A program made the translations under genes and the position numbers. The notes beneath the pieces were generated by a model. The model saw only the letters and a list, made by a program, of their open reading frames with translations, was not told the origin of the DNA and did not search any database. A DNA stretch of 64,000 nt from Niameybacter massiliensis (GTDB taxonomy: Bacteria > Bacillota > Clostridia > Lachnospirales > Cellulosilyticaceae), in contig NZ_LN875035.1 in NCBI RefSeq assembly GCF_001282685.1, positions 1,505,572 to 1,569,571 of the forward strand, written 5' to 3'. Every line of letters begins with the position of its first letter. The stretch's first letter is position 1. Positions 7,946-32,895 of this stretch are shown piece by piece.

Positions 7946-7957
7946 TTTAACGCCTCC

Positions 7958-7982
7958 AATTCCTAGTTATTTTGTAGGAATT
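7958..7982. promoter_or_regulatory. Palindromic operator of the isc operon
   Basis: AATTCCTA and TAGGAATT are exact reverse complements separated by nine bases. The site sits between the -10 box and the ribosome binding site of iscR. A TTCCTA half site is what I recall for Rrf2/IscR-type operators in Firmicutes, so the product of the adjacent gene is the likely ligand. Confidence 0.75.
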
Positions 7983-7990
7983 ACATTTTC

Positions 7991-8019
7991 AGCATATCAC
8001 TCCCTTTTTTATTTGTCAA
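7991..8019 (-). promoter_or_regulatory. Promoter of the iscR-nifS-nifU-mnmA operon
   Basis: On the minus strand TTGACA (8014-8019) and TATGCT (7991-7996) are separated by exactly 17 bases, directly upstream of the palindromic operator. Confidence 0.8.
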
Positions 8020-8060
8020 TTATTATTTTTTGTGCTATAGTAGTGTGTTCCAATTTGTCC

Positions 8061-8090
8061 TTGATAAAACCTAAAGTCTTTGTCTATACT
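8061..8090 (+). promoter_or_regulatory. Promoter of the NusG-II-like gene pair
   Basis: TTGATA (8061-8066) and TATACT (8085-8090) with an 18-base spacer lie 45 bases before the start codon of the gene at 8135. This promoter is divergent from the isc promoter. Confidence 0.6.
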
Positions 8091-8134
8091 GATAATTGAA
8101 CAAGCATTATTTTCTAAAGAAAGGTGTTTTTAAG

Positions 8135-8527
8135 ATGAGTAAACATATAAATAAAATCATTATTGCCGCCATTGGCATCCTTATGGTTGTATGTATTATT
8201 GCAATTTTTATAATGATGAACTATAAAACTCCAGACCACCAAATAGCTACTATAAAATTAGATGGTGAAGTGATTCGTGAGATAGATTTATCAAAAGTAT
8301 CTGATCCCGAAACTTTTTCAGTCGAAAATAAACATGGTGGTACTAATACCATTCATGTTGAACATGGTAAAATCAGATTTCTAGAAGCAAGCTGTCCAGA
8401 TCAGCTTTGTGTACAACAAGGTTATATCTCTAATAGCTTGTTACCTGCAGTCTGCCTTCCTAATGGAGTAGTTATTGAAATTGAAGCAGCTAATGAAGAG
8501 TTATTACTCGATGCTATTGTTGAATAA
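8135..8527 (+). CDS. NusG domain II-like membrane-anchored protein
   Basis: The 130-residue protein has one N-terminal membrane segment (residues about 7-29) and a small outer beta domain. That domain carries ASCPDQLCVQQGYI and LPAVCLPNGVVI, the conserved three-cysteine pattern of the NusG_II (DUF1667-like) extracytoplasmic family. The start at 8135 has AAAGGTG eight bases upstream; a TTG at 8096 opens the same frame but lacks a site. The gene is followed after 11 bases by a Gx-transporter-family gene, a pairing common in Firmicutes. The molecular role is not established; association with Rnf or flavinylation functions has been suggested for relatives, which is inference here. Confidence 0.8.
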   Translation: MSKHINKIIIAAIGILMVVCIIAIFIMMNYKTPDHQIATIKLDGEVIREIDLSKVSDPETFSVENKHGGTNTIHVEHGKIRFLEASCPDQLCVQQGYISNSLLPAVCLPNGVVIEIEAANEELLLDAIVE

Positions 8528-8538
8528 AAGGAGTCTCT

Positions 8539-9060
8539 ATGAATAAAGTTCAAAAGTTAGTCTATTTAAGCTTATTATGTGCCATTGCACTTGTTATCTT
8601 TATTATTGAATTACAAATTCCACCTATTGCGCCTATCCCTGGTCTAAAACTTGGCCTGGCTAATATGGTTTCCCTTGCTGTATTAATTCTCTATGGACCA
8701 AAAGAAGCCTTAACTGTACTTTTATTACGCATCTTTTTAGGAACAATGATTACAGGGAAAGTCTCTACAATTTTCTTTAGTCTTGCTGGAGGCCTACTTA
8801 GCAATATAGGTATGATCTTACTTTATAAATATTGTAGCAAATATATAAGTATCTGGGTCATTAGTGTTGTGGGCTCTATCCTACATATTATTGGTCAACT
8901 TGTTATTGCTGTAATAATTACAAATACACCTGGTATTTTCTTCTATGCACCAATTCTTCTTGTGAGTAGTATTGTTGCAGGATACTTCGTAGGATGGGGA
9001 GCTCTCTTTATCAGTAAACATTTAAAGAAAATTATGCGGACAGCAAATAAAGATTTTTAA
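8539..9060 (+). CDS. Gx transporter family protein (heptaprenyl diphosphate synthase component I-like)
   Basis: The 173-residue protein has five to six hydrophobic segments. It carries the family signature PGLKLGLANMVSLAVL followed by LYGPKEALTVLLLRI near residues 35-70. Older annotation calls these heptaprenyl diphosphate synthase component I, but the sequence is that of a small integral membrane protein resembling an ECF substrate-binding subunit. It follows the NusG-II-like gene with AAAAGGAG at the right spacing, and a strong terminator comes directly after its stop codon. The cargo is unknown. Confidence 0.85.
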   Translation: MNKVQKLVYLSLLCAIALVIFIIELQIPPIAPIPGLKLGLANMVSLAVLILYGPKEALTVLLLRIFLGTMITGKVSTIFFSLAGGLLSNIGMILLYKYCSKYISIWVISVVGSILHIIGQLVIAVIITNTPGIFFYAPILLVSSIVAGYFVGWGALFISKHLKKIMRTANKDF

Positions 9061-9064
9061 TCAA

Positions 9065-9094
9065 AAAAGGTGTTTCCTGTGGGAAACACCTTTT
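9065..9094 (+). terminator. Terminator of the Gx transporter gene
   Basis: A 13-base perfect stem (AAAAGGTGTTTCC with GGAAACACCTTTT) and a four-base loop start four bases after the stop codon. Confidence 0.9.
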
Positions 9095-9183
9095 ACATTT
9101 TAGGTTATAAAAATATAGTCTAATTTTATATCATTAAGCATATACATAGAATGTATTATATATGTCATATTTATAATTTATAT

Positions 9184-9428
9184 AATTAAATGAGTCCAGC
9201 TTTTAGCAGATATATCATAGGATATAAATGTCTGTTCGTGACTTCTACCTTTAAGCGGCATCTTAATGGTAGGGCCTTCTTTTGTTTAAAGCTGGTTTTG
9301 TAAAGGCTAGACTCATTATTGTAGAATAAGGAATTTGTTCAAAGGGGATACTATACCATTTTACACTGTATAGTAATAATATATGCGGTCTTCTAAAAAA
9401 GGTTCCACTTTATTTAGAAATTTTTTTG
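9184..9428 (+). ncRNA. Candidate structured non-coding RNA with a pseudoknot
   Basis: This gap between two converging genes is not random. P1 pairs AATGAGT (9189-9195) with ACTCATT (9311-9317). P2 pairs CCAGCTTT (9196-9203) with AAAGCTGG (9288-9295). P3 is a hairpin at 9207-9234 (TATATC with GATATA, then CAGA with TCTG). P4 is a hairpin at 9245-9272 (CTACC and TTAAG arms). GCCTT (9274-9278), inside P2, can pair with AAGGC (9303-9307), outside it, which makes a pseudoknot. A further hairpin (ACTATAC at 9350 with GTATAGT at 9368) and a U-tailed terminator follow. TATAAT hexamers stand at 9172 and 9181 without a clear -35. I cannot match it to a known family. Strand is inferred from the terminator. 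No coding frame fits. Confidence 0.5.
9391..9428 (+). terminator. Terminator closing the candidate ncRNA
   Basis: TTCTAAA pairs with TTTAGAA and, after one mismatch, AAAG pairs with CTTT. A run of seven T follows on the plus strand (9421-9427). The T run on this side only favours plus-strand transcription. Confidence 0.6.
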
Positions 9429-9445
9429 TTCTTCTTAATACTATA

Positions 9446-10639
9446 TTATTCAAGTACAAGTATTTTTTGTTCTACTTTTTTCAACAAAATTTTATAAACT
9501 GATTTATTTATTCTCTCTTCACTTAGTTCTCCCTTTTCATAAGCTTCTTTTAATGCTTCCATAGCCTCATCTAATTGTTCTGGCATCAGAATCATATCTA
9601 TCCCACTTATAAAACTCATAAGTGTAGCTTGCCCTGATCCTCTATCTTCTATAATAGCGCCCATATTCATAGCGTCGGTAATAAATATAGTATGCTCTTT
9701 ATCAAAGTTTTGTTCTATATATTTTCCCCATCTCGGTGAAAGTGTAGCTGGAAGTGTATCCATTTCTTCTACAATCAAATGTCCTACCATTACCACATCT
9801 ACTCCATTCTTTGTGGCTTCTAAAAATGGCTTCATTTCTTCATCTTCTAATTCTTTGATTGTTTTATCAATGTAAGCTAAACCAACATGTGAATCTTCTA
9901 CTGTATTACCGTGTCCCGGGAAATGTTTTATAACAGGTATTATCTCTTCCTCCTTTAGCCCTTTACTAAACGCCATAACCATAGGTATCACTTCTTCTGC
10001 TGTCTTTCCAAAGCTTCTATCTCCAATCACTGTATTTTGAGGGTTGTTATAAATATCAGCATCTGGAGCAAAATTCATATTAACACCTATAGAATTTAGT
10101 ACTTTCCCCATACGTTTTGCTTCCTCATATGCCACTTGCGTATCTCCAGTTTCGCCAATAGCTTCAGCACTTTTGAATGGTGCATTCACCATAGCTTCAT
10201 TATTTCCGACTCTGCTTACTCTCCCACCTTCTTCATCAATTCCAATCCATAAGGACGTAGTTGCCTGCTCCTGTAATCCTTGTACAAGCTTACTTGTTTC
10301 TTCTATGGTTGTAATATCATCTTTAAAAAGTATAACGCCACCTACATCCTTTCCATATTTATCATTTACTGCTACTTGTTGTACCGTCACAAAAAATAGC
10401 TGGCCAATCTTTTCCTCTATACTCATTTGATTCATATAGTCTAAAACTTGCTTTTCTTTTATCTCTTCCACCATCCTTGCATCCGAAGGGTGAGAATCTG
10501 ATTGTGGCTCATTTTGTGGCAACACCTGAGAATCAAATTGCTTCTCCCCATGCCCAATCTCTAAGTCTATCTTGTTACATCCTATAAATATAAAGCTCAT
10601 AAGTCCTATCAGTATCACCCAACTTAATAATTTTTCCAC
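9446..10639 (-). CDS. Glycoside hydrolase family 3 lipoprotein, NagZ-like beta-N-acetylhexosaminidase
   Basis: The 397-residue protein begins with a lipoprotein signal (hydrophobic residues 4-20, lipobox FIGC with Cys21), so it is probably anchored outside the membrane. The GH3 barrel carries the NagZ-type motif KHFPGHGNTVEDSH, whose Asp-His pair acts as the acid-base. The nucleophile aspartate lies in FITDAMNMGAI. Such enzymes trim N-acetylglucosamine from muropeptides or glycans. Translation starts at a GTG preceded by AGGAGATAAA. The C-terminal second GH3 domain is absent, as in single-domain NagZ. It is divergent from the DUF2225 gene, with a palindrome between them. Confidence 0.88.
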   Translation of the reverse strand: MEKLLSWVILIGLMSFIFIGCNKIDLEIGHGEKQFDSQVLPQNEPQSDSHPSDARMVEEIKEKQVLDYMNQMSIEEKIGQLFFVTVQQVAVNDKYGKDVGGVILFKDDITTIEETSKLVQGLQEQATTSLWIGIDEEGGRVSRVGNNEAMVNAPFKSAEAIGETGDTQVAYEEAKRMGKVLNSIGVNMNFAPDADIYNNPQNTVIGDRSFGKTAEEVIPMVMAFSKGLKEEEIIPVIKHFPGHGNTVEDSHVGLAYIDKTIKELEDEEMKPFLEATKNGVDVVMVGHLIVEEMDTLPATLSPRWGKYIEQNFDKEHTIFITDAMNMGAIIEDRGSGQATLMSFISGIDMILMPEQLDEAMEALKEAYEKGELSEERINKSVYKILLKKVEQKILVLE

Positions 10640-32752: not shown

Positions 32753-32801
32753 ATTTTTCTTTTTCCTCTTCCTCTTATATTTCATTGGGAAGGTGAACAT
32801 T

Positions 32802-32866
32802 TCGTAGTCTACTTATTTACGGCAAGTAGGTAGAAACCTTCGGTCCTTATCACCAAATTTATACGA
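32802..32866 (-). promoter_or_regulatory. Guanine-type purine riboswitch aptamer
   Basis: On the minus strand the 65 bases show the purine aptamer. P1 pairs TCGTA with TACGA. J1/2 starts with TAAA, and the P2 loop is followed by GGTTTCTACC. A CCGTAAAT P3 loop region comes next, and the 3' end is GACTACGA. The specificity base before TACG is C, which in xpt-type aptamers selects guanine, xanthine or hypoxanthine over adenine. It lies 49 bases before the permease ATG. No terminator is present between aptamer and gene; CTTCC just after the aptamer can pair with GGAAG in the ribosome-binding region, which hints at translational control. Confidence 0.88.
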
Positions 32867-32895
32867 TATAATATATGTATACATAAGTCGATTTT

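Follow-up and report, generated by a model that had tools for sequence, protein, structure and literature searches.

A structured RNA family of the Cellulosilyticaceae with a promoter that resembles the sigma-K consensus

We describe a non-coding RNA of about 310 nt, encoded on the minus strand (from about 9370 to 9063) of a 64,000-nucleotide stretch of the Niameybacter massiliensis genome, here called the window, which is probably transcribed from a sigma-K-type promoter in the mother cell and would act in trans. Its homology, structure, strand, promoter match and terminator were obtained by computation, and from these we infer its mother-cell expression and its action in trans. The RNA occupies a gap (9061-9445) between a plus-strand gene pair and a minus-strand gene (Table 1), where no open reading frame of at least 60 aa is found; six frames of at least 20 aa overlap 9063-9445, the longest of 39 aa. 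The terminator (9063-9093) adjoins the end of the convergent gene at 8539-9060 on the plus strand. The initial annotation had proposed a stand-alone structured RNA in this gap, and that part of the proposal is strengthened by covariation among relatives; the strand is most likely the opposite one, the limits move to about 9063-9370, and conservation does not extend to the pseudoknot.

Table 1. Features of the RNA and its neighbours in window coordinates.
Feature	Position	Strand	Basis or remark
NusG_II	8096-8527	+	left of gap, first of gene pair
Hpre_diP_synt_I	8539-9060	+	left of gap, second of gene pair
Intrinsic terminator, 9-bp stem, U6, RNA end	9063-9093	-	hairpin -16.1 kcal/mol
P1, 3' arm	9189-9204	-	covariation in alignment A6
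P2, 3' arm	9207-9216	-	helix comparison
P2, 5' arm (window: CAGA + bulge + TATATC)	9221-9234	-	helix comparison
Core strand 2, AGAAGUCACGA (most copies AGAAGUYAY)	9236-9246	-	alignments
P3, 3' arm	9245-9255	-	covariation
P3, 5' arm	9262-9272	-	covariation
Core strand 1, CAAAAGAAGGCCCUACC (most copies AAAGAWNGYCCU)	9268-9284	-	alignments
P1, 5' arm	9302-9317	-	covariation in alignment A6
Box 2, near-invariant 23-mer TAAAATGGTATAGTATCCCCTTT	9341-9363	-	at predicted 5' end; 13/20 loci
Transcription start, predicted	near 9370	-	inferred from usual -10 spacing
-10 element GCATATATTA, exact fit to GCATANNNTA	9377-9386	-	pair pattern
-35 element GAACC, sigma-K-type, one letter off KCACM	9401-9405	-	pair pattern
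Glycosyl hydrolase family 3 gene	9446-10639	-	right of gap

Conserved structure and the strand that carries it

The stems originally described at 9184-9428 are present in the sequence, and the segment folds better than chance on either strand, with a z of -3.45 on the plus strand (1 of 200 dinucleotide shuffles as good) and -4.04 on the minus strand (0 of 200). P1, which closes the structure, and the internal hairpins P2 and P3 are conserved among relatives and show compensatory changes, the observation whose absence from homologous loci the initial annotation had named as grounds for refutation. In a sequence-only alignment of 15 sequences (A3), 14 of the 37 pairs change on both sides, a number reached by none of 500 shuffles (mean 8.5), and 29 individual cells are changed on both sides where shuffles give 12.4 (0/500). 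One of five measures, the number of further pair types, does not rise above the shuffles (29 versus 30.1). When the partners are slid by 1-3 columns, the paired cells of A3 fall from 84% to 37-50%. A second alignment (A6) of 18 distinct sequences, made by fitting to the model and hence biased towards it, has changes on both sides in 18 of 36 pairs (12.8 shuffled, 3/500 reach this) and in 57 cells (21.4 shuffled, 0/500); within P1, this applies to 12 of the 16 pairs.

While the stems vary, the two strings that flank P3, AAAGAWNGYCCU and AGAAGUYAY, are near-constant in most copies, and the core around P3 looks like an internal loop that may bind a protein or a ligand. On the sense strand, an AU-rich flank like UUUAAnnAUAUA lies 3' of the P1 3' arm; it is conserved in most of the 20 loci and unpaired in the models. 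An outer helix (P0) between the promoter region and the tail was considered and rejected, the best helices being no better than those of shuffles in 19 of 20 loci. The GCCTT/AAGGC pseudoknot of the initial annotation is not conserved: all five pairs form in a single one of 19 aligned copies, that of the window itself, and the crossing regions give 7 bp in another register in 4 of the 19.

The structured RNA is most likely on the minus strand, given the pair statistics, the shuffle z, the terminators and the promoter motif considered below. Standard pairs fill 84.2% of the A3 cells on the minus strand versus 75.6% on the plus strand. Read on the minus strand, the varying pairs of A3 comprise 48 G-U and 21 A-C cells and the hand-aligned helices 76 G-U versus 14 A-C, a surplus that comes mostly from P2, with its three invariant G-U pairs. 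This helix is 14 bp long in two sister groups, which exchange A-U and U-A at three positions beyond the G-U pairs; those G-U pairs form on the minus strand only, and only there is the helix continuous. The shuffle z is lower on the minus strand in 12 of 15 copies (mean -4.9 versus -3.25), the three others (in genomes G001, G016 and G020; G and L numbers are our handles for genomes and loci) counting against this strand, and in G020 the inner P2 also pairs better on the plus strand. The minimum free energy (MFE) is likewise lower on the minus strand in 12 of 15 copies, with exceptions other than those of z.

The terminators point the same way. On the sense strand 17 of 20 loci have a hairpin with a U-rich tail within 230 nt downstream, the ones without being G001, G009 and G023; on the antisense strand 6 of 20 have one, the window not among them. 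That 9184-9428 is instead a stand-alone RNA of the plus strand, as first proposed, would agree with the MFE of the P1 domain in the window, which is deeper on that strand (-42.1 versus -37.2), and with a TATAAT-like string that precedes P1 there; with pair statistics, terminators and promoter motif all opposed to it, we consider this reading highly improbable. The plus-strand U-tailed terminator claimed at about 9390-9428 is a weak AU stem below the terminator filter, and the part of the sequence that was to end the RNA at 9428 carries the promoter and 5' end of the minus-strand transcript.

Distribution and genomic neighbourhood

Copies of the RNA are present in 21 of the 24 Cellulosilyticaceae genomes, with one credible copy per genome, and none was detected in the family genomes G006, G010 and G011. 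The carriers are Cellulosilyticum, which NCBI taxonomy places in the Cellulosilyticaceae, Sporanaerobium hydrogeniformans (G001), C. ruminicola (G016), an Epulopiscium metagenome-assembled genome (G020) and other relatives of Epulopiscium. A DNA search returned matches at E <=0.01 in 43 of 146 genomes, mostly short; 12 loci among them, all in the family, were taken to be homologues on inspection, and one further match (L018) was inspected and dropped. A model of the plus strand (R1) matched 15 of 392 genomes of the order, all in the family. A model of the minus strand comprising P1, P2 and P3 (R2) matched 19 of the 24 family genomes, namely those 15 and G005, G003, G007 and G017 (E 1e-5 to 0.005); these four extra copies were gained with less strict filters and a broader alignment, and prove nothing on strand. 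A third model (R3) adds G014 (E 8.5e-10) and G004 (E 0.039). Models built from relatives thus account for 20 of the 24 genomes, and the twenty-first copy, that of G004, was accepted by hand on the strength of a core that is present and a P1 that is fully altered yet perfect.

Across 391 genomes of the class R2 matched that of the window only, and neither this sample nor the 392 genomes of the order yielded a credible copy outside the family; the searches that covered more than 40 genomes were run with stricter filters and with 7 candidates scored in each genome, so that distant copies may exist elsewhere. Several candidates were set aside. A match in a genome of another family (G391, E 0.0026) lacks the core, and neither core string occurs in the weak additional matches of G016 (E 0.044) and of the genome of the window (E 0.2). 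The core pattern occurs in 86 stretches of a virus collection, and among the 80 that were examined the best R1 match has an E of 0.098, and they were taken as chance; 32 matches to it in a genome collection comprise 11 from the family and 21 judged by their R1 scores to be chance. On these samples, the RNA appears to be restricted to a single family, whose members are bacteria of the gut and rumen.

Fifteen of the 21 copies lie upstream of iscR and are co-directional with it. The isc-linked loci contain iscR-iscS, followed by iscU and mnmA where the contig reaches; the name IscR is given here from its place and an Rrf2 domain, the NCBIfam models for IscR and CymR both scoring below their cut-offs. 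Between iscR and the RNA, the window contains a NusG_II and Hpre_diP_synt_I gene pair (8096-9060), and the same pair is recognizable by eye in G018 (L056); it was not found in the other 13 isc-linked loci. In all 15 loci the isc promoter is followed, before iscR, by a repeat of the CCTA-n-CTAGG type (7946-8096 in the window; L052-L065), which is doubled in some Cellulosilyticum copies.

Around the six other copies, no isc gene is found within 5.5-10 kb. In G005 and G003 the RNA lies downstream of an acetolactate synthase-type gene, in G004 downstream of tenA, and in G007, G017 and G014 downstream of a SpoVB-like flippase, identified by below-cut-off matches to TIGR02900 except in G017, where it was recognized by reading its likeness to the G007 protein.

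The isc linkage raises the question of whether the element could be a cis-acting, riboswitch-like leader of the iscR operon, with the intervening hairpin as expression platform. The element does precede iscR on the minus strand in 15 loci, and in 13 of these its core lies 224-450 nt from the iscR start; in the window and G018, however, this distance exceeds 1.2 kb and two plus-strand genes intervene, and six copies are not beside isc at all. Moreover, the isc genes have a promoter of their own between the element and iscR, with TTGACA in 14 of 15 loci and TAGACA in G020. A leader function is therefore very unlikely in our estimation, and the element does not keep the constant position in the 5' leader of a regulated gene that would mark an isc riboswitch. 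Because six copies are unlinked to isc and the isc promoter is separate, the RNA is an independent gene, not a leader. It has the properties of a stand-alone non-coding RNA gene, with a promoter, a terminator, a covarying structure, no long open reading frame and variable neighbours, the exceptions being the promoter pair in G016 and the sense terminator in the three loci named above.

Promoter and box 2

The sense strand carries a bipartite motif, KMAC-N16/17-CATANNNTA, upstream of the RNA. Its loose form ([A/C]AC-N16/17-[C/A]ATANNNT[A/G]) is present in 19 of 20 loci and its strict form (AC-N16/17-CATANNNTA) in 12, where dinucleotide shuffles lead one to expect 0.45 and 0.11 loci, for a pattern that was drawn up with the sequences in view and that tolerates either C or A at one -35 position and some latitude in the loose -10. 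These loci fall into about 11 sequence groups from 8 genera and do not amount to 20 independent cases; 10 of the groups carry the motif, and the remaining one, the C. ruminicola copy (G016), lacks both the promoter pair and box 2. If the -35 element is written as K[C/A]AC the counts are unchanged (19 loose, 12 strict), and at the mirrored position on the other strand the motif is found in none of the 20 loci. Both strands of the loci taken together (126,104 bases) contain 34 loose and 17 strict matches.

Sigma-K promoters have 16-17 bp between their two elements. The promoter of the RNA resembles the sigma-K consensus of Bacillus subtilis, a type used late in spore formation, which Table 4 of PMC3416734 gives as KCACM and GCATANNNTA; its arrangement, with elements of this kind about 16 bp apart, is the one expected of a small RNA of the sigma-K regulon. 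According to Table 3 of the same paper, both C. lentocellum and Epulopiscium type B have sigK.

The -10 element alone does not separate sigma-K (CATANNNTA, 13 of 20 loci) from sigma-E (CATANANT, 12 of 20), whose -10 consensus appears in PMC3416734 as KCATANANTN and which the -10 of many copies, that of the window included, also fits. One could thus envisage that the same minus-strand RNA is transcribed by the housekeeping or another sigma factor and has a role in growth or in Fe-S metabolism, as its position upstream of iscR-iscS in 15 of 21 copies might suggest. We consider this unlikely: the full sigma-E pair (ATA-N14/18-CATANANT) is found in 1 of 20 loci and a loose sigma-A pair in 5, where 0.47 and 3.6 would be expected, as against 19 of 20 for the sigma-K pair, and the isc linkage is missing from 6 of the 21 copies.

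Downstream of the sigma-K-type promoter, within about the first 30 transcribed nt as counted from the predicted start, lies box 2, which is absent from 7 of the 20 loci. Exact copies of its central 18-mer number 12 in the 24 genomes of the family, and each lies in a locus of the RNA. Box 2 contains UAUCCCCUUU, complementary to AAAGGGGAUA, and this string could be a seed for ribosome-binding sites. It is equally conceivable that the DNA of box 2 is an operator. A candidate hairpin at the 5' end, in box 2, overlaps the predicted start of transcription.

Relation to known RNAs and proposed role

The initial annotation had left the RNA unassigned and had called for a scan of the region against Rfam. 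In Rfam 15 there is no match over the RNA at gathering score; the single weak hit in 8900-9700, with an E of 0.46 and a score far short of its cut-off, stops at 9094 and lies outside the element. In the relatives, the matches to Rfam at E <=10 are below gathering score, with none over the P1-P3 core and few in the flanks. Elsewhere in the window, a purine riboswitch aptamer at 32785-32886 on the minus strand (78.4 bits, gathering score 37) is the sole match at gathering score.

The raiA family (RF03072), which had been suggested for comparison, can be set aside: its model has no match over the element, none at E <=1 in 8900-9700, and none at E <=10 in 19 loci of the RNA (18 relatives and the own genome, G023 and G017 not included). 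Its cut-off of 101.3 bits is reached in none of 59 genomes of the order, own genome included, where two lower matches (12.3 and 10.2 bits) lie away from the RNA. In a sample of the class, 19 of 118 genomes have a match above this cut-off. Like the RNA described here, raiA/ModT is a stand-alone structured clostridial RNA, one that affects sporulation in C. difficile (PMC11706538), and the two have a short AGAAGU string in common. In contrast, raiA has helices P1-P8 and two pseudoknots as described in PMC11751092; we did not find the raiA core and these pseudoknots in the new RNA, where by eye only short strings are common to both and the single pseudoknot candidate lacks conservation.

The new RNA also recalls 6S RNA in being stand-alone, structured and of similar length. 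The 6S model (RF00013) has no match over it, and the single match in the own genome lies elsewhere (G000:C11:2448954-2449148, minus strand), a candidate with 36.5 bits where the cut-off is 46.4. This model matches 38 of 41 genomes, own included, at E <=0.001, and in three Cellulosilyticum genomes two matches lie side by side (G019:C34, G022:C123 and G023:C98).

Closer in kind, to judge from their description rather than from any comparison of sequences, are SurC and the polC-ylxS RNAs of B. subtilis, which PMC9147052 describes as sigma-K dependent small RNAs. CsfG and Bvs196 are further sporulation-specific small RNAs treated there, Bvs196 being of similar length at 294 nt; they belong to the forespore and to sigma-F/sigma-G, whereas the promoter found here is of the mother-cell type. 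The same account gives no known mRNA target for CsfG, a forespore small RNA of B. subtilis, and reports no obvious sporulation defect upon disruption of the SurC, polC-ylxS or CsfG RNAs. In the open-licence literature we found no earlier report of the RNA in Cellulosilyticum or Epulopiscium or beside iscR. By these comparisons the RNA appears to be a family new to Rfam 15, of a kind, stand-alone sporulation-type RNA, that is already known.

We propose that the RNA is transcribed by sigma-K in the mother cell during the late stages of endospore development. In the relatives of Epulopiscium, it would be made during the development of offspring; kin of these bacteria have reportedly turned endospore formation into the production of live intracellular offspring. 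The predicted transcript would begin with a 5' leader that contains box 2, continue with P1 enclosing P2 and P3, and end with an AU-rich tail and the intrinsic terminator. It would act in trans, its core serving as a predicted protein-binding site, and in the 13 of 20 copies that have box 2, UAUCCCCUUU may pair with purine-rich ribosome-binding sites. A bolder and, in our estimation, unlikely possibility is that the RNA belongs to the late mother-cell programme and has been retained by the Cellulosilyticaceae as a ribonucleoprotein or a catalytic RNA required for the maturation of spores or offspring, with a fast-evolving scaffold around an invariant core, and that it takes the place of raiA/ModT in this order.

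This family without a match in Rfam 15 has been seen only in a lineage that comprises spore formers as well as bacteria related to viviparous giants, and its promoter leads to a precise prediction, namely transcription by sigma-K in the mother cell. If confirmed, this would add control at the level of RNA to late sporulation in a lineage whose sporulation genes were so far compared, as in PMC3416734, through their proteins, and would provide a marker by which to tell if the relatives of Epulopiscium still use the late mother-cell programme.
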